A stretch of 64,000 nucleotides of DNA, taken from contig CM049308.1 of NCBI GenBank assembly GCA_026874595.1, positions 95,032,624 to 95,096,623 on the forward strand, given 5' to 3'. Positions 15,684 to 63,600 of the stretch are shown here, piece after piece; positions within the stretch are counted from its first letter, which is position 1; every line of letters starts with the position of its first letter. The position numbers and the translations under genes are program-made. Source of the stretch: Sipunculus nudus (taxonomy: Eukaryota; Annelida; Sipuncula; Golfingiida; Sipunculidae). The notes under the pieces were generated by a model. The model saw only the letters and a program-made list of their open reading frames with translations. It had not been told where the DNA came from and ran no database searches.

Positions 15684-15860
15684 TGTTAGACTCCCGATGA
15701 CTTGACATATTTCAGTTTATAAGAGAAAAAGGAACAGCTGTTAGACTCACCACGACTTGAGGTATTTCAGTTTACAAGACAAAAGAAACAGCTGTTAAGA
15801 CTCACCATGACTCGAGGAAGTTCAGTTAACAAGACAAAAGAAACAGCTGTTAAGACTCAC
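15684..15860 (-). repeat. 55-bp minisatellite seeded at the donor of the 15.9-kb exon
   Basis: Three tandem 55-bp units directly follow, on the minus strand, the exon that ends at 15861. Each unit copies the exon/intron junction (GTCATG|GTGAGTCTTAACAG, or a diverged form) plus about 40 bases of intron. In the exon's phase a read-through meets a stop after 12 codons. This small array looks like an early stage of the larger ones in this gene. Confidence 0.8.
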
Positions 15861-15983
15861 CATGACTTGTTGTCTGGAAGCCCAGCAGGGTCCACCAGCC
15901 TGCTGATCTCTCTCAGCACCTGGACCACTCCCTTTCCAGTTGGAGAAGTTCAACCAAGACACAGATCCAGTGTCACCAAAGCC
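15861..15983 (-). CDS. Internal exon of the large gene (41 codons)
   Basis: The acceptor CACCTTTGCAG and donor CATG|GTGAGT both look strong. In phase 0, matching the donor of the giant exon, it reads 41 codons without a stop (beginning GFGDTGSVSW, ending SRQQVM) and leaves in phase 0. Another frame of the same exon reads VLREISRLVDPAGLPDNKS. It would be reached from a second acceptor at 15919, also in phase 0, and leaves in phase 2. Both are compatible with one reading of the 6.7-kb exon. The true frame is unresolved. Confidence 0.6.
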
Positions 15984-16126
15984 CTGCAAAGGTGAAACAT
16001 TGACAGAAGATGTTAACCTCTTATGTTTGTGAATATCCATCTATAGAGAGACAATGTTCATGGGACAGAGAGAGTACAAACAAAACAGTCATGTAGTGAT
16101 GATTCTACAGTTAATGTTATTTTGTA

Positions 16127-17895
16127 ACAAGTGACCCATGGGTCATGATGCTCAGCCGACTGACACGTTGACAATATGTCCTTGCACAGGCAACAAATTA
16201 AGATAATGTAGGTGGTATCATTGTTGATGCATCTTAGCTTAAGTTCTAGAATCCATAATAAGCACAACAAATTTGATGGCAATCCAACCAGCCTTTCCTG
16301 GGGAATCTGGCAATTTGTGGGTATTTTGCATTACATACCCCAAAACTCTGAGAATATAGGTCACAGTCACAGAATTTTAGGTTTCTGGGGTGAACTTTGG
16401 AGGAACTCTCAGGATGTCAAGTTAGAAGTTTCTGGGCCAAATGGTTATGATTTGTGCCCTACTTTGGTATCAAATTTTTCAATTATTCTGAGGGGTGCTT
16501 ATAAGCCCCATAGCTCAGAAAATATGGGTAACAGAGACCTACTTTTATGTTTCCAAGGAGACTTTTCATGGACCTCCCTGGATTTAAAGTTAGAAGATTC
16601 CAGGTCAAATGGTCATGATTTGTGCCCTGCTTTGGTATAAAACTTTTAATTATGCCGGGAGGTGTTTATAAGCCCCATAGCTCAGAGAATATGGGTAACA
16701 GAGACCTTAATTCTAGTTTCCAAGGAGATTTTTCATGGGCTTTCCTGAATGTCCAAATAAAAGATTCCAGGTCACATGGTTATGATTTGTGCCTTGTTAA
16801 CAGACAACCACATTTTTTTAAAGGTCTCAAAAATAAAGATAAAAATGTGTAAAAATTGGAAAAAGTCCAGGTGGCACCACTTTCTGCAGGAACTGATGAA
16901 ACACTCCATGATGCATATGCATGCAAAAAATCATGGTGATCAATGCATTAGTTAATCAGATACTTGAGCTTCTGTATCAAATTTTCATTATTCTGGGGGT
17001 TACTTCGAAGCCCCATAGCTTGAAGAACATGGGTAACAGAGACCTGATTCAAAGTTTTAAAGGAGACTTTTCATGGCCCTTTCTGGATGAGAAGTTAGAA
17101 GATTCCAGGTCCAGCGGTTACAATTTGTGCCCTGTTAACGGATGACTGCATCTTTAAAGGTCTCAGAAATAGAGAAATAAATTGTAAAAAATAGAAAAAA
17201 ATGCAGATGACACCACCAGTCTGCAGAAACTGATGAAACACTCCATGATCAATATCCATGCAAAAATTATGGTGATCAATGCATTAGTTGTTCAGATACT
17301 TAAACTTTTGTATCAAATTTTTCAATATTCTGGGGGGTACTTTGGAGCCCCATAGCTTGAAGAATATGGGTAACAGAGACCTGATTCCAGGTTTCAAAGG
17401 AGACTTTTCATGGTCCTCTCTGGATGTAAAGTAAAAACAATCCAGGTCCAGTGGTTACGATTTGTGCCCTGTTAACAGATGACTGCATCTTTTAAGGTAT
17501 CAAAAATAGAGAAAAAAAAAATTTTAAAATACAGGTGGCACCACCAGTCTGCAGAAACTGATGGAACACTCCATGATCAATATCCATGCAAAAAATTATG
17601 GTGATCAATGCATTAGTTGTTCAGATACTTGAGCTTTTGTATCAAATTTTTCATTATTCTGGGGGGTACTTTGGAGCCCCACAGCTTGAAGAATATGGGT
17701 AACAGAGACCTTACTCCAGGTTTCCAAGGAGACTTTTCATGGTCCTTTCTGGATGTAGAGTTAGAACATTCCAGGTCCAGCAGTTACGATTTGTGCCCTG
17801 TTTACGGACAGACAGCCAGACTGCCGGATGGCTGGACGGATGACGAACAAAGAGTGATCGCTATAGCTCGGATGACTTACAGTCAGCTGAGCTAA
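16127..17895 (+). mobile_element. Family C element with about 330-bp tandem units
   Basis: 5' signature ACAAGTGACCCATGGGTCAT; 3' hairpin with arms AGCTC and GAGCT ending CTAA at 17895, preceded by GACGGATG-type microsatellite. The interior is several tandem units of roughly 160-340 bp, each containing AGGTGGCACCAC (in the later units), GTCTGCAG, CCCCATAGCT and GATTTGTGCCCTG. Forward frames of 74-142 residues in it repeat the same peptide and are not genes. It is intronic, between the 15.9-kb exon and the giant exon. Confidence 0.75.
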
Positions 17896-18310
17896 AAATG
17901 ATATATAACTAAAACTGACATTGGCATTCAGGGCTCCAACCAGACTGAAGAAATACAGGAAATTAATAGGAGGACTCGAGACAAAAAATAAAGTGATTTA
18001 TAGGAATTTTCAGCTAAAATTATAATTTTCCCTGCACCATTGTGGTAAACGCAGGAAATAAACATGACAATCATTTGTTTAACAAGCTTCTAATGGTTTA
18101 TTGGTTTAGATTGCTGTAATTGTAAGCTGAATCTCTTACATGGACAGTGCTACAAAAAAAAACATGTTTTCAATGATAATAAGTTTAATATTTGGTAATG
18201 ACTGTTATACATCAGAAACATGGTTTTGCAGTGAAAAATATAGGAACTTACAGGAAAATTTTATGGGAAAATACAGAATGTATAGGCGTCTATGGGAGCC
18301 CTGAGCATTG
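17896..18310. other. Intronic sequence, no feature seen
   Basis: AT-rich, unremarkable sequence between the family C element and the 36-bp array. No exon with both splice sites was found. Confidence 0.5.
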
Positions 18311-19002
18311 TTACATACCTGTGGTCTGTGAGTACCCTAAGTTTTATTACATACCTGTGGTCTGTGAGTACCCTAAGTTTTATAACATACCTGTGGTCTG
18401 TGAGTACCCTAAGTTTTATTACATACCTGTGGTCTGTGAGTACCCTAAGTTTTATTACATACCTGTGGTCTGTGAGTACCCTAAGTTTTATTACATACCT
18501 GTGGTCTGTGAGTACCCTAAGTTTTATTACATACCTGTGGTCTGTGAGTACCCTAAATTTTATTACATACCTGTGGTCTGTGAGTAGCCTAAGTTTTATT
18601 ACATACCTGTGGTCTGTGAGTACCCTAAGTTTCATTACATACCTGTGGTCTGTGAGTACCCTAAGTTTTATTACATACCTGTGGTCTGTGAGTACCCTAA
18701 GTTTTATTACATACCTGTGGTCTGTGAGTACCCTAAGTTTTATTACATACCTGTGGACTGTGAGTACCCTAAGTTTTATTACATACCTGTGGTCTGTGAG
18801 TAGCCTAAGTTTTATTACATACCTGCGGTCTGTGAGTACCCGAAGTTTTATTACATACCTGCGGTCTGTGAGTACCCTAAGTTTTATTACATACCTGTGG
18901 TCTGTGAGTACCCTAAGTTTTATTACATACCTGTGGTCTGTGAGTACCCTAAGTTTTATTACATACCTGTGGTCTGTTAGTACCCTAAGTTTTATTACAT
19001 AC
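18311..19002 (-). repeat. 36-bp minisatellite carrying the donor of the giant exon
   Basis: About 19 near-identical 36-bp units. On the minus strand each contains ACCACAG|GTATGTAATAAAA, matching the real junction ACCGCAG|GTATGTAATAAAA at 19002/19003. Every unit is therefore a consensus-quality 5' splice site. In exon phase a read-through gives VCNKT and then a stop, so use of a distal donor would truncate the protein. The frames of 282 and 295 residues on the two strands exist only because 36 is a multiple of three. Confidence 0.92.
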
Positions 19003-21697
19003 CTGCGGTCCAGCTGTTTTTTTGCCTCTGGATATCCCATCAGATTCTGTGACATCTGGCTCGTCTGCCCACTTGGATGCCCTCGCAGGCCACTTAGGGT
19101 TACACCCAAGCTCTGGTCGCCTCAACCTCTGGGCCCCAGATGGCGCTGTCGGTTTCACCTGACTGGTGCCTGCCAGTGATGGACATGTCATTGTCATGGA
19201 CCCCTGGGTCCATGGATGTGTGTTTGTCTCTGTCTGATAATTAGTCCATCCAGTTCCAGGTGGAAAAGAAGAGAGTCCAGATAGCATTGCATTGTGGGTA
19301 GACCCTACTGATTGTGCTTGGTTAAAGGAATGATCATTTTGTTGTGCCTTTGTTAAAGGATTTTCTAAATGGCTGCTGGACTTTGGTAATTGGAACATTT
19401 TTGGGTCAACATGACTGGCGTGTTGAGGTTTAATGCCAGCTGTGGCCTCATTTTGAGAAAGTTTGACATGAGGGCCATTAGCAGGGAGACCATTTTGTCC
19501 ATTGTTGCTCTGTGTGCCTGGACCCGCAGCAGCCATGTTACGTCTATCTCGCAGGGACTTTGGACCGTACTTCTTCCTGCGGTGCATGATCACGGGAGTG
19601 TCGTCGCTCTTGCCCTCCTGTGATGTCAGTGAGACTGGGTTACTGTTGTCAGCCACTGGTACACTGGACTGCCCCACCTGACTGGCATGTGTTAATAGCT
19701 GGCTGACATCTGTTGTAGTGTTGCCAGACTGTAACAGCTGCTGATCAGTGGTTGATGTTTTCAGTCCTGCAGGTTGATCAGGGGTCTGCTCTCTGGAGTT
19801 TTCTGTATTGTACGTGTTCTTGTGTGTACTGTAAGCTGTATGTTTGGTTCTGTAAGCCGTACTGTCTGTACCGTGAGCTGTGTCGTCATCTGTACCATAT
19901 GCTGACGGAAACACCACGGGGGAGCCTTTACCTGCTGTAGCACCAGTCTTTCCCTCCAATAATTTCTGTGATGCCAAGGTAATGCCTTGGAATGCTGATT
20001 TTTGTGTTGCCATGGTGATGCCTTGGGATGCTGACTTTCCAGTGGCTCCACCAGGTGGTAGATCAGTGATCTTCATCCCTGGTGTGAGCTGAGAATCATG
20101 GCAAGTGATATGGCGAGACTGGGTTTGGGGGTTAGTACTATGTACTCCTTGGCTCTGCTTTGGCTGGGTCATCTGCTGTAGTTGAGAAGACGGCACCCCT
20201 AGACCTGCTGCTGAGGGCATGAGGAGTGGTGGCATGAGGGCGGGGTTCAAACCCAGCTGTGTGTATGCACTTAAATCAGGAACCGCCCCAGTTAAACCGG
20301 CTGGGTTACCAATATCTGCTGAGATGGTCGCATCATTTCCTTGTTCCCCTGGTTGCTGCTGCTGGGGCACCATGGGAACCAGCATGAAACCCTGTGGTAT
20401 CCAGGTCATAGGAAGGAATCCCTGCTGCTGACAGTCAGCGCCCCATACCCCGCCCTGCTGGCCCAGCCAGTTCTGGTACTGTGCCCCAGCACCTGCTGAT
20501 GAAGCAGTCACCCGAGCCGCAGAGTCAGGCATCTCCTGAGCCACGGTGTCAAACAGCTTGGTGACCTTTGGGGATATGACTGTGGGGTTTACTACTGATG
20601 TTCTGCTGTTATTGACTGTTAGTGCACTGTTGAGTGTGACTGCTGAGGGAGTCTCGCTGGACGTTACAGATCCGGGAGTCTCTGACGAGGATATGACTGG
20701 ATCCCAACCAAACTGGATCTGGCTAGACTCGCTGCTTCCTGCTGAATCACGATTGCTGGGAGCTGGATTAGCTGAGGGAGGCATGAGTGAAGCAGCAAAC
20801 AGATCCTCAGAGTCAGTCCTTGATTTCTTGCCAGAAGGGAAGGCTGTTCCTGATCCACTGCCTGAGGAGGGTTTGAGGTTGGTACTGACTGACTGTGAGG
20901 GAGCCGTGCTGACTGGCTTGGGAATGGGACTGTTTTTAGCTACTTTAGTGGATTCCTTCCTCATCCTCCCTTGAGGGGATTCCATTCTTTCACTCCCAAT
21001 AGGTAAAGGCTGACTGACTTTGATATTCTTCAACTCATCAGAACACCTATAATCGTCCACGTTGGTGTCACTGTCGCTGTCAAGCGTCCTGAAGGACAGT
21101 GAGCTGCTAGAGGCCTCAGACTTTCCAGCTTCTGGTGTGTGTGACTGCTGCATCGGCTTCGACGTCTCAGACAAGTTTAACTCCTTTAGCAAGTCAGAGC
21201 CAAGTTCATTACTGTTGGAACTGCTGAACCTGTTTGTGGATCTCCATGGATCAGATCCGCCTTGTTTGTTCCACAGATTCGCAGGCACAGACGGTTGTAC
21301 AGAAGCCTCCACTGAGTCTGTGATTCGGTGTTCAATGATATTTTGCTGGGAATGACCACTCTTATTTTTCTCTAGTTGTTCAGAGCTGAGTGCTGATTGG
21401 TGGGATCCTGACAAAGCTGACAGTAAGGGGGCACCTGATGTTGCCGTGGATATATTACTATAACCTGGCTGCTCAGTTTTCAGCATTCCAGGTGCTCTGC
21501 TCGTTCTCATGGAGTCTGCCTTCACTTTTGTCACTGCAGCCCATGATGAATTTGCATATTCATCATTAATTGACCTATTAGCATATTCATCACTGACAGG
21601 CCTATTTGCAGTGCTTGTGACTGGTCCTCCGTAAGTCACCTGACCAGACGTTGTGTCTGGAGGGAATGTTTTCGTGTCAGGGAGGTACGCCGCCATC
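19003..21697 (-). CDS. Giant exon, 898 codons, Ser/Gln/Pro-rich disordered protein
   Basis: The acceptor TTCCTTTGACAG lies just above 21697 and the donor CCGCAG|GTATGT just below 19003. The exon starts with one base that completes a codon from the exon at 22139-22346 (AT+G), so the ATG at 21694 is internal and not a start. The sequence is dominated by Ser, Thr, Gln, Pro and Asn. Recognisable stretches are an acidic DSDSDTNVDDY segment about a quarter of the way in, a hydrophobic proline/glutamine island (WIPQGFMLVPMVPQQQQP) near the middle, a basic HRRKKYGPKSLRDRRN patch about three-quarters in, and a C-terminal RRPELGCNPKWPARASKWAD. No enzymatic domain is visible. The composition suggests an intrinsically disordered adaptor or RNA/protein-binding scaffold, but the function is unknown. 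Confidence 0.88.
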
Positions 21698-22138: not shown

Positions 22139-22346
22139 ATGGCTCGAAGTTCTGATTCTCGCTCTGCCTCACGTTTACTCAGCTCCAGAGCTTGTCTCAG
22201 CATCTCTTCCTCCTCAGCCTCTGAAGCCGGTGCAAGCTGATCCAGGTTCTCCTGCTTCATCTGCATCCTCTGAGCCCTGACCTGCCACAAGTTCTCACTG
22301 GGCACCGGTGCTGGCTGGAAGGCTAGTTGTCCTGATGGATGGAGCC
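22139..22346 (-). CDS. Exon encoding a ubiquitin-interacting-motif-like helix
   Basis: 208 bases: two bases of a split codon, 68 codons and two bases of the next, which matches the exons on both sides exactly. Acceptor AATCCTGCAG|GGCTCC; donor GCCAT|GTGAGA. The central part reads AEEEEMLRQALELSKREAE, which fits the UIM pattern (acidic run, hydrophobic-x-x-Ala, then Ser four residues later and a following Glu). The N-terminal part (LHPSGQLAFQPAPV) is the segment duplicated in the neighbouring minisatellite. Binding to ubiquitin is an inference from the motif only. Confidence 0.85.
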
Positions 22347-24597
22347 CTGCAGGATTAAAAATATAAACATCAGTAGACAGGTGCTTGCTGGAAGGCTGGC
22401 TGTCCTGAAGGATGGAGCCCTGCAGGATTAAAAACACTAATATCAGTAGACAGATGCTGGCTGGAAGGCTGGCTGTCCTGAAGGATTAAAAACACAAAAA
22501 TCAGTACACAGGTGCTGGCTGGAAGGCTGGCTGTCCTGAAGGATGGAGCCCTGCAGGATTAAAAACACTAACATAAGTAGACAGGTGCTGGCTGGAAGGC
22601 TGGCTGTCCTGAAGGATTAAAAACACTAACATCAGTAGAGAGTCACTGGCTGGTAGGCTGGCTGTCCTGAAGGATTAAAAACACTAACATCAGTAGAGAG
22701 TCACTGGCTGGAAGGCTGGCTGTCCTGAAGGATTAAAAACACTAACATCAGTAGACAGGCACTGGCTGGAAGGCTGGCTGTCCTGAAGGATTAAAAACAC
22801 TAACATCAGTACACAGGTGCCTCTGGAAGGCTGGCTGTCCTGAAGGATTAAAAACACTAATATCAGTAGAGATTCACTGGCTGGAAGGCTGGCTGTCCTG
22901 AAGGATTAAAAACACTAACATCAGTAGAGAGTCACTGGCTGGAAGGCTGGCTGTCCTGAAGGATTAAAAACACTAACATCAGTAGACAGGCACTGGCTGG
23001 AAGGCTGGCTGTCTTGAAGGATTAAAAACACTAACATCAGTAGACAGGTGCTGGCTGGAAGGCTGGCTGTCCTGAAGGATTAAAAACACTAATATCAGTA
23101 GAGAGTCACTGGCTGGAAGGCTGGCTGTCCTGAAGGATTAAAAACACTAACATCAGTAGAGAGTCACTGGCTGGAAGGCTGGCTGTCCTGAAGGATTAAA
23201 AACACTAACATCAGTAGACAGGCACTGGCTGGAAGGCTGGCTGTCTTGAAGGATTAAAAACACTAACATCAGTAGACAGGTGCTGGCTGGAAGGCTGGCT
23301 GTCCTGAAGGATTAAAAACACTAACATTAGTAGACAGCCACTGGCTGGAAGGCTGGCTGTCCTGAAGGATTAAAAACACTAATATCAGTAGACAGGCACT
23401 GGCTGGAAGGCTGGCTGTCCTGAAGGATTAAAAACACTATCATCAGTAGAGAGTCACTGGCTGGAAAGCTGGCTGTCCTGAAGGATTAAAAACACTAACA
23501 TCAGTAGAGAGTCACTGGCTGGAAGGCTGGCTGTCCTGAAGGATTAAAAAACACTAACATCAGTAGAGAGTCACTGGCTGGAAGGCTGGCTGTCCTGAAG
23601 GATTAAAAACACTAACATCAGTAGACAGGTGCTGGCTGGAAGGCTGGCTGTCCTGAAGGATTAAAAAAACTAACATCAGTAGACAGGCACTGGCTGGAAG
23701 GCTGGCTGTCCTGAAGGATTAAAAACACTAACATCAGTAGAGAGTCACTGGCTGGAATGCTGGCTGTCCTGAAGGATTAAAAACACTAACATCAGTACAC
23801 AGGTGCTGGCTGGAAGGCTGGCTGTCCTGAAGGATGGAGCCCTGCACAAATTAAAAACACTAACATCAGTAGACAGGTGCTGGCTGGAAGGCTGGCTGTC
23901 CTGAAGGATGCAACCCTGCACAAATTAAAAACACTAACATCAGTAGACAGGTGCTGGCTAGAAGGCTGGCTGTCCTGAAGGATGGAGCCCTGCACAAATT
24001 AAAAACACTAACATCAGTAGACAGGTGCTGGCTGGAAGGCTGGCTGTCCTGAAGGATTAAAAACACTAACATCAGTAGACAGGCACTGGCTGGAAGGCTG
24101 GCTGTCTTGAAGGATTAAAAACACTAACATCAGTAGACAGGTGCTGGCTAGAAGGCTGGCTGTCCTGAAGGATGGAGCCCTGCACAAATTAAAAACACTA
24201 ACATCAGTACACAGGTGCTGGCTGGAAGGCTGGCTGTCCTGAAGGATTAAAAACACTAACATCAGTAGAAAGGCACTGGCTGGAAGGCTGGCTGTCCTGA
24301 AGGATTAAAAACACTAACATCAGTAGACAGGTGCTGGCTACAAGGCTGGCTGTCCTGAAGGATTAAAAACACTAACATTAGTAGACAGGCACTGGCTGGA
24401 AGGCTGGCTGTCCTGAAGGATTAAAAACACTAATATCAGTAGACAGGCACTGGCTGGAAGGCTGGCTGTCCTGAAGGATTAAAAACACTAACATCAGTAG
24501 AGAGTCACTGGCTGGAAAGCTGGCTGTCCTGAAGGATTAAAAACACTAACATCAGTAGAGAGTCACTGGCTGGAAGGCTGGCTGTCCTGAAGGATTA
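22347..24597 (-). repeat. 58/73-bp minisatellite seeded at the acceptor of the UIM exon, main block
   Basis: About 38 tandem units. Long units (about 73 bp) contain the full junction TTTTTAATCCTGCAG|GGCTCCATC plus the first exon codons (encoding GLHPSGQPAFQPAP). Short units (58 bp) lack 15 bases lying between two GGAT repeats, yet still end AATCCTTCAG, an acceptor-like site. The block next to the exon is the real acceptor. It is broken by a family C element at 24598 and continues at 27737-28041 and 30529-30800. Confidence 0.92.
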
Positions 24598-27500
24598 ACA
24601 AGGGACCCATGGGTCACGGCGCTCAGCTGATCGTGATTGGACTATAAATGTTTCTCAACTGTGATACTATATCGAGTTGATAAAGCTTATGAATATCATG
24701 TACATGTTGGGCTATTATAAAGGAATGTAATGTAATATGTGAGTAAATGATAAATGAAATTACCTGACTGATGGATTAATAGAGTCAAATAAAGTGGTTT
24801 ATTTTTTATTTATTTAGGAGGGGTTGAAAATTGTGATATATTTGAGCAAATATAAATGCAATGACAGCAGTAATAAGCAGTAGTAGAATGATGATAAGGC
24901 TATTTGTTGAAGGATCTAAAGTGTATGGTAGTCTGCAAGCGTTCAATTTGACAGATATGATGTTATGATTAACTATGCTGATGAAGTGATTTATGAATAT
25001 GTGACTGTATGACACAATATCTCTTTAGTCTTGACAAGGTACATTATTGTGATGCCCACTATGTCTACATATTACACAATATTGACATAATTTCTGGCAT
25101 GTACATAGGTACCTATGGACGAATAGTTATACAAAATATTAAAGTATGAATATATCTGATTCATCTTGTTCTTGCTTACTGAGGCTGACTTTGGGATGGG
25201 GTTCGGAGAAGGGAAAAGTTAGGGCAGCATGAAGGTGGATGTAGAAATATTCTTTTGTAATGTTTTTCATTTATATAAGAATATGAAAAGCTAAGAGGAA
25301 AGGGGCCCTCCTACTTGGTTATAGTAAAGTTCTAAATATATGATTGCAAACTAATACTCTGACAAGACTGTCATGAAGAAAAACAGTAAAAGTTTTGAGA
25401 TACTGTGTTGCATACGAAAATTTACAGATGGACAGGCAAGTGGACAGAATGGACTAATACCTTTATTTCACTTTCAAGGGAATAATGCATTTAAGTTTAT
25501 ATATAATCCTATTTTTTTAAGCAGATCCACTTTTTCCATTAAGAAGTTTTTATCTGAATCATTTTTTTTATTTACAGGTTTATACATTTTTAAATAAAAA
25601 ACCTGAAAATATAAGTTAAAATATTAGAATTGTTGCAAAAGTTGCAATCATTATATATACAGAGTAAAAAACATTGGGTCATATTATGCATACACATATA
25701 TTTTATTATTTTTAAATCATAAATGTTTAAACTGATTTTAAAAGAAAATAATGCCACAACATGGCATCTACAAGAATATTCCTTGAATCACTATTAAAAA
25801 GTTTTGCATATTGGAGTTTTCAGGACATGCTTAATTTTATTCACCAAAATAAAATAAAATTAAATTTGATAAAATAAAACATCTTTTCAATTAAAGTATA
25901 TACACTGTTGGTTGAATGAGGGACAAACAATATCATTGTGCTAATTACTATCCCAGTTTTAATTAATTACTGGAATTAATAGTCAATTTCACACCTGGTG
26001 AAGTTTTTACTCTTCTGAAGTAAGGAATTACTTATCTCATGAACATCCACACTTACACAGCAATACACCACTTTGTGGACACAATTAAATGTACACTTTA
26101 ATCATTGTTACCCTGGTGGTTCAATACAAAATCTAAAATGTAGCATGTCCAAGAATAAAATAAAATACAGAAAAATTATAACATTCATCTAGTTTATGCA
26201 CCAGCTGGGGGGGGGGGGGATGAGTGCAGGGCGAGGGGAAGCCTGCTAGTAGTGGCCAAGCTGGGCCAAGGTAAGCTGCCTGGGGTGGGTTACATAATGC
26301 AAGTGAAGGTGGGCTAGATGTAAACAACACTTGACATGGTGAATGAAAACATGAATAAAAGCTATTCATTCCAATCAATTTCTTTTGAAAGTTTAGATTT
26401 TAAAAGATTAAATCCTTATGCATATATGCTGGGAAAATTAAATCAACAGTGCCAAAGTTGGACAAAATTTAAGGTATTGATTTTTTATTTATGCTAATAA
26501 CTTGAAAAATTTGCAAAATTCAGATCTAATTTGGGGTAAACAATTGAATTTTGATTAAATAAAGTTAATATTCCTGAAAAAAAGTCTCTAGGTTCAGCAT
26601 TTCTCATGTGAGTATATATATTTCCTGATTTTAAAAAAAATTGCATTGTTTTGGCCCATAACTTCAAAATAATATCCAATACTGACCGAATTTTTGGTAT
26701 GTTCATAGAAAATGTATAAAAGAATGTGAATACTAAATACGATCAAAAACAGATCAGTGGTTTTGATATTAGGCAGCCTTGAAGTGTAACAATGGCTTTT
26801 TTTATGGAAAACAGAGTTTTTTTTTCCTTAATATCTCGAAGGAACAAAGTCCTAATGACCCAATTTTTGGTATGGTAGGAGATTTTGGGGACATCTAAAA
26901 TTATGTCAACAGCCTGGGGAGCATAGAGATGTGCACTGAATGACCTACAGTCATCAAAGTGGACTGCTTGACAATGTAAGGGAATACAACAAGAGCCTCC
27001 AAAAAAATTCAATAACTAGCCTAATTTTGCAGCTTTTATTTTCAAATTTCAGATTTTAACAGATTAAATCCTTATGTATACATGGTGTGAAAATTAAATC
27101 CACAGTTCTTACAGGAAAAAAACATGCCATGGCCAAAGTTGGGCAACATTTAAGGTACCAATTTTATATTTTTGCCAATATTTAAAAAAATTTAACAAAT
27201 TTTGATCTAATTTTTGGTATACAATTAAATTTTGATTAATTAAAGTTGTATTACTGGAAAAAAGTCCCTACCTTTAACACTTTTGGTCTTAAGTGACCAA
27301 ATATCTTCCTGATTTTTTTACAAAGTCCATAATGTTTGGGCTCATAACTTTTTTAAATTATATAATACTGACTTTATATCTGGCATGTACATAGGAACTA
27401 TATAGAGGAATATTTATGGTAAATATGAAGAAAACCAGATGAGTGGTTTTGATATTAGGCAGTCCTGAAGTGTGAAAATAGATTTCTAATAAAAAATTGA

Positions 27501-27736
27501 GGTTTTTCCTTAATATCTCAAAGGAACGAAGTCCTATTGACCCAATTTTTGGCATGGTAGGAGATTATGGGGACATCTAACTGTATGCCAAAATTCAGAT
27601 TCGTAGGTCCAACGGTGTAGAAACGTGCCAGTCTTACGGACGGACATCCAGACGGACGGACGGACGGACGGACAGACAGACGGACAGACATTGGACCATG
27701 ACTATAGCTCAGATGACTTACAGTCAGCTGAGCTAA
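24598..27736 (+). mobile_element. Family C-long element 2, inserted in the minisatellite
   Basis: Starts ACAAGGGACCCATGGGTCAC and ends at the AGCTCAG/CTGAGCT hairpin with terminal CTAA. A GACGGACG microsatellite lies at about 27650-27690. Minisatellite sequence on both sides gives the empty site: GGATTA(A) on the left and AAACACTAAC on the right, so insertion was between A residues with no duplication. It contains an intact copy of the small membrane-type frame and a G-tract at about 26208-26219. Confidence 0.88.
24806..25015 (-). CDS. Small open frame in family C-long element 2
   Basis: 69 residues, differing at about five positions from the copy at 13429-13638, all outside the hydrophobic stretch. 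Same caveats: it may be element-encoded or a by-product of young copies. Confidence 0.25.
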   Translation of the reverse strand: MSYSHIFINHFISIVNHNIISVKLNACRLPYTLDPSTNSLIIILLLLITAVIAFIFAQIYHNFQPLLNK

Positions 27737-28041
27737 AAACACTAACATCAGTAGACAGGCACTGGCTGGAAGGCTGGCTGTCCTGAAGGATTAAAAACAC
27801 TAACATCAGTAGACAGGTGCTGGCTGGAAGGCTTGCTGTCCTGAAGGATTAAAAACACTAACATCAGTAGAGAGTCACTGGCTGGAAGGCTGGCTGTCCT
27901 GAAGGATTAAAAACACTAACATCAGTAGACAGGCACTGGCTGGAAGGCTGGCTGTCCTGAAGGATTAAAAACACTAACATCAGTAGACAGGTGCTGGCTG
28001 GAAGGCTGGCTGTCCTGAAGGATGGAGCCCTGCAGGATTAA
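27737..28041 (-). repeat. 58-bp minisatellite, second block
   Basis: About five units continuous in sequence with the block ending at 24597. The last unit has the long form with GGAGCCCTGCAGG. The block is bounded on both sides by family C insertions. Confidence 0.9.
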
Positions 28042-31318: not shown

Positions 31319-31366
31319 CTGAAGATTAGCAAGAAAATACATAGAACTACAGGGAAGCTGGTTAAA

Positions 31367-49186: not shown

Positions 49187-50299
49187 GATCAGACAAGGCT
49201 CAACTGTCCCTCTAACACACCATCAGACAAGGCTCGCTTGTTCCTCTAACATACAAGATCAGACAAGGCTCACCTGTCCCTCTAACACACCAGATCATAC
49301 AAGGCTCATTGTCCCTCAAACACACCAGGTCAGATGAGACTCGCCTCTCCCTCAAACACACCAGATCAGACAAGGCTCATCTGTCCCTCTAACACAACAG
49401 ATCAGACAAGGCTCACCTGTCCCTCTAACACACCAAATCAGATGAGGCTCACCTGTCCCTCAAACACCAGATCAGATGAGGCTAACCTGTCCCTCTAACA
49501 CACAAGATGAGAAGAGGTACATCTGTCCCTCTAACATACCAGATCAGACAAGGCTCACCTGTCCCTCTAACACACCAGATCAGACGAGGCTCACCTGTCC
49601 CTCTAACACACCACATCAGAAAAAGATCACCTGTCCCTCTAAAACACCAGATCAGACAAGGCTCACCTGTCCCTCTAACACACCAGATCAGACAAGGCTA
49701 ACCTGTCCCACTAACACACCAAATCAGACAAGGCTCACAAGTGATTAGACAAGGCTCACCTGATCCTCAAACACACCAGATCATCAAGGCTTACTTGTCC
49801 CTCAAACACACCAGATCAGAGGAGGCTCACCTGTCCCTCGAACACACCACATCAGACAAGGCTCACCTGTCCCTCTAACACACCAGATCAGACAAGGCTC
49901 ACCTGTCCCACTAACACACCAAATCAGACAAGGATCACAAGTGATTAGACAAGGCTCACCTGTCCCTCAAACACACCAGGTCATCAAGGCTTCCTTGTCC
50001 CTCAAACACACCAGATCAGAGGAGGCTCACCTGTCCCTCAAACACACAAGACCAGATGAGGCTCACCTGTCCCTCTAACACATCAGATCAGACAAGGCTC
50101 ACCTGTCCCTCTAACAACAAATCAGACAAGGCTCACCTGTCCCTCTAACACACCAGATCAGAAGAGGCACTTAGTCCCTCTAACATACCAGATCAGATGA
50201 GGCTCACCTGCCCTCTAAAACACCAGATCAGAAGAGGCACATCTGTCCTCTAACATACCAGATCAGATGAGGCTCACCTGTCCCTCTAACACACCAGAT

Positions 50300-53200: not shown

Positions 53201-56200
53201 GATCAGAAGAGGCACATCTGTCCCTCTAACATACCATATCAGATGAGGCTCACCTGCCCTCTAAAACACCAGATAAGACAAAGATCACCTGTCTCTCTAA
53301 CACACCAGATCAGACAAGGCTCACCTGTCCCTCTAAAACACCAGATCAGACAAGGCTCACCTGTCCCTCTAACACACCAAATCAGACAAGGCTCACCTGT
53401 CCCTCTAACACACCAGATCAGAAGAGGCACATCTGTCCCTCTAACATACCAGATCAGATGAGGCTCACCTACCCTCTAAAACATCAGATAAGACAAAGAT
53501 CACCTGTCCCTCTAACACACCAGATCAGACAAGGCTCAATTGTCCCTCAAACACACCAGATCAGATGAGGCTCACCTGTCCTTCACACACAAGATCATAC
53601 AAGGCTCATTGTCCCTCAAACACACCAGGTCAGATGAGGCTCGCCTCTCCCTCAAACACACCCGATCAGACAAGGCTCACCTGTCCCTCTAACACACCAA
53701 ATCAGACAAGGCTCACCTGTCCCTCTAACACACCAGATCAGACATGGCTTACCTGTCCCTCTAACATACCAGATCAGACAAGGTTAACCTGTCCCTCTAA
53801 CTCACCAGATCAGACAAGGCTCACCTGTCCCTCTAACACACCAGATAAGACAAGGCTCACCTGTCCCTCTAACATACCAGATCAGACAAGGCTCACCTGT
53901 CCCTCTAACACACCAGATTAGATGAGGCTCACCTGTCCCTCTAACACACCAGGTCAGACAAGGCTCACTTGTCCCTCAAACACACCAGATCAGATGATGA
54001 TCACCTGTCCCTCAAACATACCAAATCAGACAAGGCTCACCTGTCCCTCTCACACACCAGATCAGATGATGGCTCACCTGTCCCTCTAACATACCAAATC
54101 AGACAAGGCTCATCTGTCCCTCTAACATACCAGATCAGACAAGGCTCACCTGTCCCTCTAACATACCAGATCAGACAAGGCTCACCTGTCCCTCTAACAC
54201 ACCAGATCAGACAAGGCCCACCTGTCCCCTAACATACCAGATCAGACAAGGCTCACCTGTCCCTCTAACTCACAAGATCAGACAAGGCTCACCTGTCCCT
54301 CTAACTCACCAGATCAGACAAGTCTAACCTGTCCCTCTAATACACCAGATCAGACAAGGCTCACCTGTCCCTCTAACATTCCAGATCAGACAAGGCTCAC
54401 CTGTCCCTCTAACATACCAGATCAGACAAGGCTCACCTGTCCCTCTTACACACCAGATTAGATGAGGCTCACCTGTCCCTCTAACATACCAGATCAGACA
54501 AGGCTCACCTGTCCCTCTTACACACCAGATTAGATGAGGCTCGCCTTTTTCCTCTATCATACCAGATTAGACAAGGCTCACCTGTCCCTCTTACACACCA
54601 GATTAGATGAGGCTCACCTGTCCCTCTAACACACCAGATCAGACAAGGCTCACCTGTCCCTCTAACACACCAGATTAGAGGAGGCTCACCTGTCCCTCTA
54701 ACATACCAGATCAGACAAGGCTCACCTGTCCCTCTTACACACCAGATTAGATGAGGCTCACCTGTCCCTCTAACACACCAAATCAGACAAGGCTCACCTG
54801 TCCCTCTAACACACCAGATCAGAAGAGGCACATCTGTCCCTCTAACATACCAGATCAGATGAGGCTCACCTGCCCTCTAAAACACCAGATAAGACAAAGA
54901 TCACCTGTCCCTCTAACACACCAGATCAGACAAGGCTCACCTGTCCCTCTAAAACACCAGATCAGACAAGGCTCACCTGTCCCTCTAACACACCAAATCA
55001 GACAAGGCTCACCTGTCCCTCTAACACACCAGATCAGAAGAGGCACATCTGTCCCTCTAACATACCAGATCAGATGAGGCTCACCTACCCTCTAAAACAT
55101 CAGATAAGACAAAGATCACCTGTCCCTCTAACACACCAGATCAGACAAGGCTCAATTGTCCCTCAAACACACCAGATCAGATGAGGCTCACCTGTCCTTC
55201 ACACACAAGATCATAAAGGCTCATTGTCCCTCAAACACACCAGGTCAGATGAGGCTCGCCTCTCCCTCAAACACACCCGATCAGACAAGGCTCACCTGTC
55301 CCTCTAACACACCAGATCAGACAAGGCTCACCTGTCCCTCTAACACACCAGATCAGACATGGCTTACCTGTCCCTCTAACATACCAGATCAGACAAGGTT
55401 AACCTGTCCCTCTAACTCACCAGATCAGACAAGGCTCACCTGTCCCTCTAACACACCAGATAAGACAAGGCTCACCTGTCCCTCTAACATACCAGATCAG
55501 ACAAGGCTCACCTGTCCCTCTAACACACCAGATTAGATGAGGCTCACCTGTCCCTCTAACACACCAGGTCAGACAAGGCTCACTTGTCCCTCAAACACAC
55601 CAGATCAGATGATGATCACCTGTCCCTCAAACATACCAAATCAGACAAGGCTCACCTGTCCCTCTCACACACCAGATCAGATGATGGCTCACCTGTCCCT
55701 CTAACATACCAAATCAGACAAGGCTCATCTGTCCCTCTAACATACCAGATCAGACAAGGCTCACCTGTCCCTCTAACATACCAGATCAGACAAGGCTCAC
55801 CTGTCCCTCTAACACACCAGATCAGACAAGGCCCACCTGTCCCCTAACATACCAGATCAGACAAGGCTCACCTGTCCCTCTAACTCACAAGATCAGACAA
55901 GGCTCACCTGTCCCTCTAACTCACCAGATCAGACAAGTCTAACCTGTCCCTCTAATACACCAGATCAGACAAGGCTCACCTGTCCCTCTAACATTCCAGA
56001 TCAGACAAGGCTCACCTGTCCCTCTAACATACCAGATCAGACAAGGCTCACCTGTCCCTCTTACACACCAGATTAGATGAGGCTCACCTGTCCCTCTAAC
56101 ATACCAGATCAGACAAGGCTCACCTGTCCCTCTTACACACCAGATTAGATGAGGCTCGCCTTTCCCTCTATCATACCAGATTAGACAAGGCTCACCTGTC

Positions 56201-56710
56201 CCTCTTACACACCAGATTAGATGAGGCTCACCTGTCCCTCTAACACACCAGATCAGACAAGGCTCACATGTCCCTCTAACACACCAGATTAGAGGAGGTT
56301 CACCTGTCCCTCTAACATACCAGATCAGACAAGGCTCACCTGTCCCTCTTACACACCAGATTAGATGAGGCTCACCTGTCCCTCTAACATACCAGATCAG
56401 ACAAGGCTCACCTGTCCCTCTAACATACCAGATCAGACAAGGCTCACCTGCCCCTCTTACACACCAGATCAGATGAGGCTCGCCTGTCCCTCTAACATAC
56501 CAGATCAGACAAGGCTCACCTGTCCCTCTTACACACCAGATTAGATGAGGCTCTCCTGTCCCTCTATCATACCAGATCAGACAAGGCTCACCTGTCCCTC
56601 TTACACACCAGATTAGATGAGGCTCACCTGTCCCTCTAACACACCAGATCAGACAAGGCTCACCTGTCCCTCTAACATACCAGATCAGACAAGGCTCACC
56701 TGTCCCTCTA
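50300..56710. repeat. Higher-order copy 1 of a 6.39-kb tandem duplication
   Basis: The order of variant units in this block recurs in the next block at an offset of 6386-6388 bases over most of its length (6422 at its left end, a one-unit difference). Within it, a 1.61-kb segment (about 53240-54850) is repeated immediately (about 54850-56470). Confidence 0.75.
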
Positions 56711-59700
56711 ACACACCAGATCAGACAAGGCTCACCTGTCCCTCTAACACCACATCAGAAAAAGATCACCTGTCCCTCTAACTCACCAGATCAGACAAGG
56801 CTCACCTGTCCCTCTAACACACCAAATCAGACAAGGCTCACCTGTCCCTCTAACACACCAGATCAGAAGAGGCACATCTGTCCCTCTAACATACCAGATC
56901 AGATGAGGCTCACCTGCCCTCTAAAACACCAGATAAGACAAAGATCACCTGTCCTTCTAACACACCAGATCAGACAAGGCTCACCTGTCCCTCTAACACA
57001 TCAGATCAGACAAAGATCACCTGTCCCTCTAACACACCAGATCAGACAAGGCTCACTTGTCCCTCAAACACACTAGATCAGATGAGGCTCACCTGTCCTT
57101 CACACACAAGATCAGACAAGGCTCACCTGTCCCTCTAACACACCAAATCAGACAAGGATCACAAGTGATTAGACGAGGCTCACCTGTCCCTCAAACACAC
57201 CAGGTCATCAAGGCTTACTTGTCCCTCAAACACACCAGATCAGAGGAGGCTCACCTGTCCCTCAAACACACCAAACCAGATGAGGCTCACCTGTCCCTCG
57301 AACACATCAGATCAGACAAGGTTCACCTGTCCCTCTAACATACCAGATCAGAAGAGGCACTTAGTCCCTCTAACATACCAGATCAGATGAGGCTCACCTG
57401 CCCTCTAAAACACCAGATAAGACAAAGATCACCTGTCCCTCTAACACACCAGATCAGACAAGGCTCACCTGTCCCTCTAAAACACCAGATCAGACAAGGC
57501 TCACCTGTCCCTCTAACACACCAAATCAGACAAGGCTCACCTGTCCCTCTGACACACCACATCAGAAAAAGATCACCTGTCCCTCTAACTCACCAGATCA
57601 GACAAGGCTCACCTGTCCCTCTAAAACACAATATCAGACAAGGCTAACCTGTCCCACTAACACACCAAATCAGACAAGGCTCACAAGTGATTAGACAAGG
57701 CTCACCTGTCCCTCAAACACACCAGATCATCAAGGCTTACTTGTCCCTCAAACACACCAGATCAGAGGAGGCTCACCTGTCCCTCTAACACACCACATCA
57801 GACAAGGCTCACCTGTCCCTCTAACACACCAGATCAGACAAGGTTCACCTGTCCCACTAACACACCAAATCAGACAAGGATCACAAGTGATTAGACAAGG
57901 CTCACCTGTCCCTCAAACACACCAGGTCATCAAGGCTTACTTGTCCCTCAAATACACCAGATCAGAGGAGGCTCACCTGTCCCTCAAACACACCAGACCA
58001 GATGAGGCTCACCTGTCCCTCTAACACATCAGATCAGACAAGGCTCACCTGTCCCTCTAACACCAAATCAGACAAAGCTCACCTGTCCCTCTAACACACC
58101 AGATCAGAAGAGGCACTTATTCCCTCTAACATACCAGATCAGATGAGGCTCACCTGCCCTCTAAAACACCAGATAAGACAAAGATCACCTGTCCCTCTAA
58201 CACACCAGATCAGACAAGGCTCACCTGTCCCTCTAAAACACGAGATCAGACAAGGCTCACATGTCCCTCTAACACACCAAATCAGACAAGGCTTACCTGT
58301 CCCTCTAACATACCAGATCAGAAGAGGCACATCTGTCCTCTAACATACCAGATAAGATGAGGCTCACCTGTCCCTCTAACACACCAGATCAGATGAGGCT
58401 CACCTGTCCCTCTAACTCACCACATCAGAAAAAGATCACCTGTCCCTCTAACTCACCAGATCAGACAAGGCTCACCTGTCCCTCTAACACACCAAATCAG
58501 ACAAGGCTCACCTGTCCCTCTAACACACCAGATCAGAAGAGGCACATCTGTCCCTCTAACATACCAGATCAGATGAGGCTCACCTGCCCTCTAAAACACC
58601 AGATAAGACAAAGATCACCTGTCCTTCTAACACAACAGATCAGACAAGGCTCACCTGTCCCTCTAACACACCAGATCAGATGAGGCTCACCTGTCCCCCA
58701 AACACCAGATCAGATGAGGCTCACCTGTCCCTCTTACACACAAGATGAGAAGAGGTACATCTGTCCCTCTAACATACCAGATCAGACAAGGCTCACCTGT
58801 CCCTCTAACACACCAGATCAGACGAGGCTCACCTGTCCCTCTAACACACCACATCAGAAAAAGATCACCTGTCCCTCTAACTCACCAGATCAGACAAGGC
58901 TCACCTGTCCCTTTAACACACCAGATCAGACAAGGCTAACCTGTCCCACTAACACACCAAATCAGACAAGGCTCACAAGTGATTAGACAAGGCTCACCTG
59001 TCCCTCAAACACACCAGATCATCAAGGCTTACTTGTCCCTCAAACACACCAGATCAGAGGAGGCTCACCTGTCCCTCTAACACACCACATCAGACAAGGC
59101 TCACCTGTCCCTCTAACACACCAAATCAGACAAGGCTCACCTGTCCCTCTAACACACCAATTCATGAAGAGGCACATCTGTCCCTCTAACATACCAGATC
59201 AGAGGAGGCTCACCTGTCCCTCTAACACACCAGATCAGAGGAGGCTCACCTGTCCCTCAAACACACCAGACCAGATGAGGCTCACCTGTCCCTCTAACAC
59301 ATCAGATCAGACAAGGCTCACCTGTCCCTCTAACACCAAATCAGACAAGGCTCACCTGTCCCTCTAACACATCAGATCAGAAGAGGCACTTAGTCCCTCT
59401 AACATACCAGATCAGATGAGGCTCACCTGCCCTCTAAAACACCAGATAAGACAAAGATCACCTGTCCCTCTAACACACCAGATCAGACAAGGCTCACCTG
59501 TCCCTCTAAAACACCAGATCAGACAAGGCTCACCTGTCCCTCTAACCAACAAATCAGACAAGGCTCACCTGTCCCTCTAACACACCAGATCAGAAGAGGC
59601 ACATCTGTCCCTCTAACATACCATATCAGATGAGGCTCACCTGCCCTCTAAAACACCAGATAAGACAAAGATCACCTGTCTCTCTAACACACCAGATCAG

Positions 59701-62700
59701 ACAAGGCTCACCTGTCCCTCTAAAACACCAGATCAGACAAGGCTCACCTGTCCCTCTAACACACCAAATCAGACAAGGCTCACCTGTCCCTCTAACACAC
59801 CAGATCAGAAGAGGCACATCTGTCCCTCTAACATACCAGATCAGATGAGGCTCACCTACCCTCTAAAACATCAGATAAGACAAAGATCACCTGTCCCTCT
59901 AACACACCAGATCAGACAAGGCTCAATTGTCCCTCAAACACACCAGATCAGATGAGGCTCACCTGTCCTTCACACACAAGATCATACAAGGCTCATTGTC
60001 CCTCAAACACACCAGGTCAGATGAGGCTCGCCTCTCCCTCAAACACACCCGATCAGACAAGGCTCACCTGTCCCTCTAACACACCAGATCAGACAAGGCT
60101 CACCTGTCCCTCTAACACACCAGATCAGACATGGCTTACCTGTCCCTCTAACATACCAGATCAGACAAGGTTAACCTGTCCCTCTAACTCACCAGATCAG
60201 ACAAGGCTCACCTGTCCCTCTAACACACCAGATAAGACAAGGCTCACCTGTCCCTCTAACATACCAGATCAGACAAGGCTCACCTGTCCCTCTAACACAC
60301 CAGATTAGATGAGGCTCACCTGTCCCTCTAACACACCAGGTCAGACAAGGCTCACTTGTCCCTCAAACACACCAGATCAGATGATGATCACCTGTCCCTC
60401 AAACATACCAAATCAGACAAGGCTCACCTGTCCCTCTCACACACCAGATCAGATGATGGCTCACCTGTCCCTCTAACATACCAAATCAGACAAGGCTCAT
60501 CTGTCCCTCTAACATACCAGATCAGACAAGGCTCACCTGTCCCTCTAACATACCAGATCAGACAAGGCTCACCTGTCCCTCTAACACACCAGATCAGACA
60601 AGGCCCACCTGTCCCCTAACATACCAGATCAGACAAGGCTCACCTGTCCCTCTAACTCACAAGATCAGACAAGGCTCACCTGTCCCTCTAACTCACCAGA
60701 TCAGACAAGTCTAACCTGTCCCTCTAATACACCAGATCAGACAAGGCTCACCTGTCCCTCTAACATTCCAGATCAGACAAGGCTCACCTGTCCCTCTAAC
60801 ATACCAGATCAGACAAGGCTCACCTGTCCCTCTTACACACCAGATTAGATGAGGCTCACCTGTCCCTCTAACATACCAGATCAGACAAGGCTCACCTGTC
60901 CCTCTTACACACCAGATTAAAAGAGGCTCGCCTTTCCCTCTATCATACCAGATTAGACAAGGCTCACCTGTCCCTCTTACACACCAGATTAGATGAGGCT
61001 CACCTGTCCCTCTAACACACCAGATCAGACAAGGCTCACCTGTCCCTCTAACACACCAGATTAGAGGAGGCTCACCTGTCCCTCTAACATACCAGATCAG
61101 ACAAGGCTCACCTGTCCCTCTTACACACCAGATTAGATGAGGCTCACCTGTCCCTCTAACACACCAAATCAGACAAGGCTCACCTGTCCCTCTAACACAC
61201 CAGATCAGAAGAGGCACATCTGTCCCTCTAACATACCAGATCAGATGAGGCTCACCTGCCCTCTAAAACACCAGATAAGACAAAGATCACCTGTCCCTCT
61301 AACACACCAGATCAGACAAGGCTCACCTGTCCCTCTAAAACACCAGATCAGACAAGGCTCACCTGTCCCTCTAACACACCAAATCAGACAAGGCTCACCT
61401 GTCCCTCTAACACACCAGATCAGAAGAGGCACATCTGTCCCTCTAACATACCAGATCAGATGAGGCTCACCTACCCTCTAAAACATCAGATAAGACAAAG
61501 ATCACCTGTCCCTCTAACACACCAGATCAGACAAGGCTCAATTGTCCCTCAAACACACCAGATCAGATGAGGCTCACCTGTCCTTCACACACAAGATCAT
61601 AAAGGCTCATTGTCCCTCAAACACACCAGGTCAGATGAGGCTCGCCTCTCCCTCAAACACACCCGATCAGACAAGGCTCACCTGTCCCTCTAACACACCA
61701 GATCAGACAAGGCTCACCTGTCCCTCTAACACACCAGATCAGACATGGCTTACCTGTCCCTCTAACATACCAGATCAGACAAGGTTAACCTGTCCCTCTA
61801 ACTCACCAGATCAGACAAGGCTCACCTGTCCCTCTAACACACCAGATAAGACAAGGCTCACCTGTCCCTCTAACATACCAGATCAGACAAGGCTCACCTG
61901 TCCCTCTAACACACCAGATTAGATGAGGCTCACCTGTCCCTCTAACACACCAGGTCAGACAAGGCTCACTTGTCCCTCAAACACACCAGATCAGATGATG
62001 ATCACCTGTCACTCAAACATACCAAATCAGACAAGGCTCACCTGTCCCTCTCACACACCAGATCAGATGATGGCTCACCTGTCCCTCTAACATACCAAAT
62101 CAGACAAGGCTCATCTGTCCCTCTAACATACCAGATCAGACAAGGCTCACCTGTCCCTCTAACATACCAGATCAGACAAGGCTCACCTGTCCCTCTAACA
62201 CACCAGATCAGACAAGGCCCACCTGTCCCCTAACATACCAGATCAGACAAGGCTCACCTGTCCCTCTAACTCACAAGATCAGACAAGGCTCACCTGTCCC
62301 TCTAACTCACCAGATCAGACAAGTCTAACCTGTCCCTCTAATACACCAGATCAGACAAGGCTCACCTGTCCCTCTAACATTCCAGATCAGACAAGGCTCA
62401 CCTGTCCCTCTAACATACCAGATCAGACAAGGCTCACCTGTCCCTCTTACACACCAGATTAGATGAGGCTCACCTGTCCCTCTAACATACCAGATCAGAC
62501 AAGGCTCACCTGTCCCGCTTACACACCAGATTAGATGAGGCTCGCCTTTCCCTCTATCATACCAGATTAGACAAGGCTCACCTGTCCCTCTTACACACCA
62601 GATTAGATGAGGCTCACCTGTCCCTCTAACACACCAGATCAGACAAGGCTCACCTGTCCCTCTAACACACCAGATTAGAGGAGGCTCACCTGTCCCTCTA

Positions 62701-63100
62701 ACATACCAGATCAGACAAGGCTCACCTGTCCCTCTTACACACCAGATTAGATGAGGCTCACCTGTCCCTCTAACATACCAGATCAGACAAGGCTCACCTA
62801 TCCCTCTAACATACCAGATCAGACAAGGCTCACCTGCCCCTCTTACACACCAGATCAGATGAGGCTCGCCTGTCCCTCTAACATACCAGATCAGACAAGG
62901 CTCACCTGTCCCTCTTACACACCAGATTAGATGAGGCTCTCCTGTCCCTCTATCATACCAGATCAGACAAGGCTCACCTGTCCCTCTTACACACCAGATT
63001 AGATGAGGCTCACCTGTCCCTCTAACACACCAGATCAGACAAGGCTCACCTGTCCCTCTAACATACCAGATCAGACAAGGCTCACCTGTCCCTCTAACAC
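56711..63100. repeat. Higher-order copy 2 of the 6.39-kb duplication
   Basis: Matches copy 1 nearly base for base apart from scattered substitutions and one or two single-unit or single-base indels. The internal 1.61-kb duplication is present here too, so it arose before the 6.39-kb duplication. Confidence 0.75.
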
Positions 63101-63409
63101 ACCAGATCAGACAAGGCTCACCTGTCCCTCTAACACACCAGATCAGACAAGGCTCACCTGTCCCTCTAACACACCAGATCAGACAAGGCCCACCTGTCCC
63201 TCTTACACAACAGATCAGACAAGGCCCACCTGTCCCTCTAACATACCAGATCAGACAAGGCTCACCTTTCCCTCTAACACACCAGATCAGACAAGGCTCA
63301 CCTGTCCCTCTAACACACCAGATCAGACAAGGCCCACCTGTCCCTCTTACACAACAGATCAGACAAGGCCCACCTGTCCCTCTTACACGACAGATCAGAT
63401 GAGGCTCAC

Positions 63410-63510
63410 CTGCTGTGCCTTTTCTTTACGACGTGCCTTTTTACTCTTCTTCTTGTGTGTGGATTTGGTGATGAATATGTCTGTAGTCGGAGCTCTGTCT
63501 TGCTGAGGCT
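63410..63510 (-). CDS. Internal exon with a Lys/Arg-rich segment
   Basis: The donor GCACAGCAG|GTGAGC leaves in phase 0. Two acceptors are possible: TTTCCCACCAG at 63510, or TTTATTCAG at 63521, which would add 11 bases and shift the entry phase. The sequence reads PQQDRAPTTDIFITKSTHKK and then KSKKARRKEKAQQ, a strongly basic tail that could be a nuclear localisation or nucleic-acid contact region (inference). The 63510 acceptor is preferred because it matches the phase of the candidate exon at 63601. Confidence 0.72.
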
Positions 63511-63600
63511 CTGGTGGGAAACTGAATAAAGCAGAATAAATACAAGTGTATCACTTTGTGCCTGTCACAGTTAATGTTTAAGTAGTAGTTTAATACTTAC

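Follow-up and report, generated by a model that had tools for sequence, protein, structure and literature searches.

Minisatellite arrays at splice junctions of a gene of Sipunculus nudus resemble lancelet mirages and recur at other genes of the same genome

Minisatellites that cross exon–intron boundaries have been described before. The closest are the 'mirages' of lancelets, tandem repeats across exon–intron boundaries in Adh3, the globin genes BflGb6 and BflGb9, PGBD5 and troponin C, which occur at donors or acceptors, are unstable in length and are reported to be harmless to splicing; their origin was termed unclear (PMC3087553, PMC3902484). In human IFI6 (6-16, G1P3), minisatellite units are reported to supply splice donors (Turri 1995). 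Variable internal tandem repeats in human segmental duplications expand as minisatellites at exon–intron boundaries and are reported to be capable of forming new introns (PMC2812944), and in potato RdRp a tandem duplication copies the splice signals and makes a new intron (PMC4974935). Here we describe arrays of this kind at the splice junctions of a minus-strand gene of the annelid Sipunculus nudus. The gene was read in a stretch of 64,000 nucleotides, hereafter the window (contig C3, 95032624-95096623, in a genome assembly of 1.43 Gb and 153 contigs). The contig is 97.9 Mb long, and the window lies ~2.9 Mb short of its end.

A first-pass annotation of the window had noted minisatellites at five donors and one acceptor of this gene, each with a unit containing a copy of the exon's own splice junction, and had stated that no named class was known to fit. 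Lancelet mirages are such a class. They too are minisatellite-like arrays spanning exon–intron boundaries at donors or acceptors, with units of 10-72, 60, 108 and 150-160 bp, compared with 22-73 bp here. The Sipunculus arrays differ in extent, with probably seven in one gene, up to ~395 copies and more than 14 kb of repeat, and in being accompanied by genome-wide counts and controls. The units of IFI6 likewise provide donors, but downstream units are used there, whereas the donors in the present arrays are putative. Recent human paralogues were compared in the work on segmental duplications, and ordinary genes of one genome are compared here; a new intron arose in potato RdRp, whereas here an existing intron is lengthened. 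In intron gain by tandem duplication the copies supply both intron ends, whereas each array described here sits at one end of its intron; the opposite end was not searched for a matching copy. No genome-wide count of junction-spanning arrays was found among the listed titles and abstract openings of open-licence PubMed Central papers.

Exons of the gene were read by hand from reading frame and splice signals, and are called E_a to E_h (Table 1). All six arrays were recovered by Tandem Repeats Finder where the first-pass annotation had placed them, and all end just inside exons. Past the junction, the donor arrays reach 2 bp into E_a (last exon base 63410), 4 bp into E_b (48915), 2 bp into E_e (31149), 7 bp into E_g (19003) and 8 bp into E_h (15861), and the acceptor array covers the first 40 bp of E_f (CAG|GG at 22347/22346). 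The exon bases in common with the neighbouring copy, exact and with mismatches respectively, numbered 7 and 9 for E_h, 3 and 8 for E_g, 3 and 5 for E_e, 1 and 5 for E_b, and 3 and 3 for E_a. With so few common exon bases in most arrays, the junction copy there is made up largely of the donor together with the intron bases next to it. Spanning of the boundary is weakest for E_g (19.00 kb), E_e (31.15 kb), E_b (48.91 kb) and E_a (63.41 kb), with 1-3 exact exon bases each. The proposal that the arrays arose independently is supported.

The suggestion that these positions go beyond chance was borne out by a placement test. Fourteen arrays were picked by hand from the Tandem Repeats Finder rows (unit 22-75 bp, overlapping rows merged), a list that omits units below 22 bp (e.g. 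20 bp at 44568-44612) and 147-337 bp arrays. Six of the 14 have their end within an exon, on the correct side of its junction, as compared with a mean of 0.156 and a maximum of 4 under random placement; six was never reached in 200,000 random placements of the same arrays. The test was made after the finding, and allowed a range from 2 bp short of the exon edge to 45 bp inside it. Chance placement does not account for the six arrays locally. Ordinary intronic hypervariable minisatellites have comparable unit size, copy number and concerted evolution, but the arrays here start at exon edges more often than expected under uniform placement.

Table 1. Exons of the minus-strand gene in the window and the minisatellite arrays at their junctions
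Feature	Position in window	Strand	Description
Exon E_a (FPPEPQQDRAPTTDIFITKSTHKKKSKKARRKEKAQQ)	63410..63521	-	Donor CAG|GTGAGC; phase 0 into E_b (own reading)
Exon E_b (SNIPGYAPVISPNKPSSTVTEEDWTVPTPQTL)	48915..49010	-	Donor CTA|GTAAAC or site within array; both phase 0
Exon E_c (VDILKDMVIGWTDNKLQLEKIRKDVQEAKRTGQA...)	~46390..46507	-	Lower bound approximate; donor provisional
Exon E_d	32678..32889	-	No array seen at its junctions
Exon E_e	31149..31318	-	Donor ATG|GTAGGT
Exon E_f	22139..22346	-	Acceptor CCTGCAG|GGCTCC; exon end has sub-threshold ubiquitin-interacting-motif match
Giant exon E_g	19003..21697	-	~900 aa; donor CAG|GTATGT
Exon E_h	15861..15983	-	Donor ATG|GTGAGT
E_a donor array, 36-bp unit, ~395 copies	49186..63412	-	Unit contains ACAG|GTGAGCC; fills almost whole E_a-E_b intron
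E_b donor array, 24-bp unit, ~53 copies	47640..48919	-	Open frame through exon and array, 362 codons in total
E_e donor array, 42-45 bp unit	31038..31151	-	One copy holds ATG|GTAAGTGCTCATGT
E_f acceptor array, 58/73-bp unit	22307..24598	-	Units hold up to ~40 bp of exon start plus intron end
58-bp copies of E_f acceptor 58/73-bp family, same intron	27734..28023	-	Found by Tandem Repeats Finder
73-bp copies of E_f acceptor 58/73-bp family, same intron	30549..30800	-	Found by Tandem Repeats Finder
E_g donor array, 36-bp unit, 19.4 copies	18311..19010	-	Unit GACCACAG|GTATGTAATAAAAC, exon GACCGCAG|GTATGT
E_h donor array, 55-bp unit, 3.4 copies	15683..15869	-	Common to exon: CAAGTCATG|GTGAGT, one mismatch in nearest copy

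A seventh case lies upstream of the window. There, an array of ~14 kb with a 48-bp unit adjoins an exon (L003:6701-6781) at CTCA|GTAAGTAATG; the consensus unit holds the same CTCA|GTAAGTAATG, and the nearest copy is degenerate. The exons found upstream on the same strand (loci L002 and L003), which lead to an exon with a sub-threshold DnaJ match, are probably part of the minus-strand gene, and the 48-bp array is probably its seventh junction array. Two more upstream arrays touch acceptors less clearly (L002:1872, without AG; L003:7576, degenerate). In the window and L002-L003 together, a junction-containing array stands at 7 of the 16 exons recognised by eye.

The junction array pattern recurs beyond one gene in this genome, so that the first-pass view of a feature confined to one gene is too narrow. 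In the annexin gene next door, a 32-bp array unit holds AAA|GTAAGT, and it was noted beforehand that an exon ending AAA or similar should therefore be found at the far end of the array. The exon that adjoins it ends KKYQEKYDK|GTAAGT, and the unit contains 17 exact bp of this exon, or 21 if mismatches are allowed. Kinesin exons provided a base rate: among 126 matches, the best-scoring 38 without internal stops were taken with 350 bp each side, and the true edge of a few long exons may fall outside the stretch taken. A junction array was seen at one of the 38 (L050, 61-bp unit, acceptor plus 32 bp of exon); a second kinesin exon (L028), where two copies begin at donor position +6, was not counted. 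The proportion in the minus-strand gene differs from that in the kinesins (7/16 vs 1/38, P 4e-4, for a gene chosen post hoc).

Consensus splice motifs in tandem were then counted across the genome. Three copies of CAGGTAAGT at steps of 20-50 bp gave 329 matches, compared with 132 for the reversed pattern, while the single 9-mers numbered 15,332 and 12,946. Among the matches listed (to 75 Mb of contig C7) there were 18 distinct CAGGTAAGT arrays and 4 reversed-pattern arrays (P 0.007). Corresponding matches were 169 and 4 for AAGGTGAGT (9 arrays among the matches listed) and 765 and 37 for an acceptor pattern, as raw counts with single-copy abundance not factored in.

The expected exon-side flank was examined for the 18 CAGGTAAGT arrays, the 9 AAGGTGAGT arrays and 9 control arrays, all on contigs C1-C7. 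Arrays that fill the stretch taken were left out (L076 and L079 for CAGGTAAGT; L110, L114 and L117 for AAGGTGAGT; controls L085 and L088). A coding exon, preceded by an acceptor and open in frame as far as the donor, adjoins 12 of 16 evaluable CAGGTAAGT arrays and all 6 evaluable AAGGTGAGT arrays (18/22), as against none of 7 controls (P 2e-4). Among the six AAGGTGAGT exons, L112 is the weakest call; control L081, in which an 86-residue open frame runs into the array with no splice signals visible, was scored as no exon junction. Copies of CAGGTAAGT sampled in the first 3 Mb of C1 included 3 clear and 2 possible donors among 20, fewer than at the array flanks (12/16 vs 5/20, P 0.006). Four of the sampled copies (L099, L100, L101 and L103) belong to arrays or adjoin them, and their exclusion leaves 2-4 of 16 (P 0.001-0.012 vs 12/16). 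Two sampled copies, L089 and L108, are near-identical. For consensus-donor arrays, the odds of lying at a true exon edge exceeded those for sampled copies of the same 9-mer by a factor of 9 to 17. Donors and acceptors are both affected, with acceptor arrays at E_f and at the kinesin exon L050, and with acceptor and donor arrays at the exon of L073.

Some individual loci deserve mention. The donor-array exon of L073 (112-267, minus-strand orientation) has a clear acceptor array too, and that of L071 (2-390, same orientation) has a probable array at or near its acceptor; these two loci suggest clustering of junction arrays within particular genes or exons. At L099-L101 (C1:1777139-1793632), one exon end, SNDYIPISYEQMYR|GTAAGT, occurs in copies 16.5 kb apart, which are probably another long junction array. 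We take this exon end to be cullin-like.

The identity of the adjoining exons bears on which came first, exon or array. Pfam was searched with 20 peptides: 17 of the 18 flank exons (L109 left out), plus those of annexin and kinesin and the DnaJ-like one upstream. Four passed a family cut-off (thioredoxin at 1.1e-10, aquaporin at 6.6e-10, annexin at 3.1e-11 and kinesin at 9e-16), a further four had sub-threshold matches only (PH, permease, DnaJ and an uncharacterised family), and 12 had no Pfam match at E 1. In comparison with solved structures, an ABCC2 match (1.5e-4) covered residues 2-46 of 46, extending to the last residue and lying within the repeated part, and a SKAP55 PH match (9.6e-4) covered residues 4-34 of 34; a DNA-PKcs match was weak (E 0.67), and L077 had no match among solved structures. 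Resemblances of L075 to ABHD proteins and of L077 to SLC23 were not established by Pfam or structure comparison. Across 24 donor arrays, the exon bases in common ranged over 1-37 exact and 3-41 with mismatches. For three of these exons (annexin, ABCC2-like and SKAP55-like), the sequence common to exon and array lies inside the family-aligned part, and the exon is therefore the parent.

Taken from sequence, the likely explanation is that the arrays are minisatellites of the mirage type, which arose when exon edges were duplicated in tandem and have drifted since. The breakpoints of a short tandem duplication would fall on either side of the junction, one in the exon at a few to ~40 bp from the edge and one in the intron next to it, and the new copy would thereby carry the splice site into the intron. 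The outermost copy would be the real exon edge, kept by selection on the protein, and the inner copies, as free intron sequence, could multiply and homogenise by unequal exchange, locally to more than 14 kb. The position of the arrays, the exon bases they have in common with the exons, the exon-first direction in several conserved-domain exons, the recurrence across genes and, in most arrays, the absence of special conservation at the splice motif are demonstrated by the data given here. We infer that the copies are neutral, and that the junction excess reflects where duplications start in transcribed genes and not use of the copies; the pattern looks more like a bias in repeat birth than a function of the copies. 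A broader proposal is that exon–intron junctions are genome-wide hotspots of minisatellite birth in this species: a process coupled to germline transcription or splicing would duplicate short stretches in tandem over exon edges and so drive intron growth. This is possible but tentative.

Several observations weigh against birth by duplication of exon edges. No clear exon was found at four CAGGTAAGT arrays (L062, L068, L069 and L070), where open frames were of 76 codons at L062 and 67 at L068, and five of the 27 arrays (L076, L079, L110, L114 and L117) were not evaluable. Flank exons were called by eye, without blinding, and a codon log-odds score lacked the power to decide single exons, with 47% of kinesin exons above the 97.5% intron limit. 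Further such points come from the gene itself and from the kinesins, and are given below with the alternatives that they favour.

If the arrays were present first, exons could have taken their splice site from the nearest copy, by intron gain or by a shift of the boundary. Consistent with this, four of the gene's six donor arrays (E_a, E_b, E_e and upstream) have at most 5 exon bases in common with the next copy, and in those four it is possible that the exon edge was captured from the array. The array-common stretches of the annexin, ABCC2-like and SKAP55-like exons, however, encode family-aligned residues, which places the exon first. We regard donor capture as an unlikely explanation of the arrays.

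The inner copies might instead be retained for splicing, either as backup for the exon's own donor or as decoys that bind U1. The units do carry usable-looking donors, and human IFI6 is reported to use downstream repeat units as donors. Selection for extra splice sites would predict a splice motif that is conserved better than any other part of each array. Conservation was ranked over rotations of the unit, and the motif was unexceptional along the unit in 5 of 6 arrays. Donor conservation was 0.920 against a unit mean of 0.911 in the E_a array (rank 17/36), 0.949 against 0.950 in the upstream 48-bp array (30/48) and 0.955 against 0.933 in the annexin array (10/32), and the motif of the E_f acceptor array scored 0.990 against 0.961 (21/58). 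Of the two sites in the E_b unit, the stronger, ACA|GTAAGT, scored 0.866 against 0.900 (18/24), with the T of GT kept in 56% of copies. Two results point the other way: CCA|GTAAAC of the E_b array, which matches the exon's own donor, ranked 6/24 (93.0 vs 89.9%), and the donor of the E_g array was the best conserved stretch of its unit (1.000 vs 0.985, rank 1/36, 19 copies). Unit length was a multiple of 3 in only 11 or 12 of 25 arrays (P 0.18 or 0.09), the E_e unit deciding between these values (42, 44 or 45 bp by the method used), and acceptors are affected as well as donors. Selection for many copies of a splice site, which the first-pass annotation had raised, is not supported, and a role as redundant sites or decoys appears improbable.

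The arrays could also reflect a regional effect, in which minisatellite-rich DNA near a contig end places some arrays on junctions by chance. The position of the window towards the end of its contig would fit, as would the six arrays found in 110 kb at 11 arbitrarily placed loci (unit at least 20 bp, at least 2.5 copies, score at least 100). The kinesin rate is not above uniform seeding, with 1 of at most 76 junctions compared with 0.21 expected (P 0.19); at an expectation of ~0.2, kinesins alone therefore prove no excess. Against a regional effect stand the placement test within the window and the exon excess over controls at arrays on C1-C7, and we consider this explanation rather improbable. 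The 24-bp E_b array could also be a protein-coding repeat and not an intron, as would fit its unit of 8 codons and the frame that stays open for 362 codons from E_b, but conservation by codon position (93.8% first, 84.6% second, 91.2% third) has no third-position excess of change, and we regard this reading as very improbable.

Two of the arrays have further features. The E_b array contains two donor-like sites per 24-bp unit, both in phase 0, and which donor serves E_b is uncertain. Within the E_a array a stretch of ~6.4 kb is present twice in near-identical form (17 windows, each of 300 bp, with a match of at least 98.5%, at offsets of 6386-6388), so that not every copy of its unit was born singly; a second internal duplication, of ~1.6 kb, was also seen. 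These duplications are either recent growth by large unequal exchange or a piece repeated by assembly. In this one assembly, the ~6.4-kb duplication is compatible with the length instability of mirages between alleles or cells.

The gene has exons E_a to E_h in the window and others upstream of it on the same strand. By hand reading, phase agreed in 6 of 7 adjacent joins (a-b, b-c, d-e, e-f, f-g and g-h). The join from E_c (~46.39-46.51 kb) to E_d (32.68-32.89 kb) is out of phase, and the exon set or donor between them is therefore provisional. A 58-bp array with 12.4 copies lies at 45494-46214 of the window; its minus-strand unit holds CAG|GTATGT and GTG|GTAAGG, and its upper end reads ...AATAGTG|GTAAGGTACC. 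This array may mark the junction of a further exon, which would bear on the phase mismatch. The 901-residue exon E_g gave no protein homologue at E 0.001 among 7,988 scored candidates and no Pfam match at E 1, and the joined smaller exons gave only the sub-threshold ubiquitin-interacting motif in Pfam.

Other repeats and contigs were noted in passing. Dispersed arrays with units of ~275-280 bp and a common palindrome, GGTGGCGCCACC, occur at 1266-2137, 8492-9355 and 40224-41064 of the window, and probably belong to a mobile-element family. Near-identically scoring COX1 genes were found on contigs C60, C61, C62, C66, C72, C74, C75 and C89. The COX1 gene of C60 (L118) is bacterial and is flanked by apparent COX3 and COX2 genes; its best segment was at most 58% identical among 80 loci compared, and the contig had no match in plasmids. 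C60 is either a cobiont or a contaminant in the assembly. A search for the molluscan haemocyanin domain gave no match, a result that is no proof of its absence.

In arrays of this kind the parent sequence is still recognisable, since protein-coding constraint holds one copy in place. A single genome may record many minisatellite births together with their orientation, which bears on open questions of minisatellite birth and intron growth. If a bias towards junctions were proven, it would indicate that transcription or splicing is connected with the underlying mutational process, and it would be a source from which alternative splice sites and new introns could evolve. Mirages, described so far in a few lancelet genes, would then be a genome-wide pattern.

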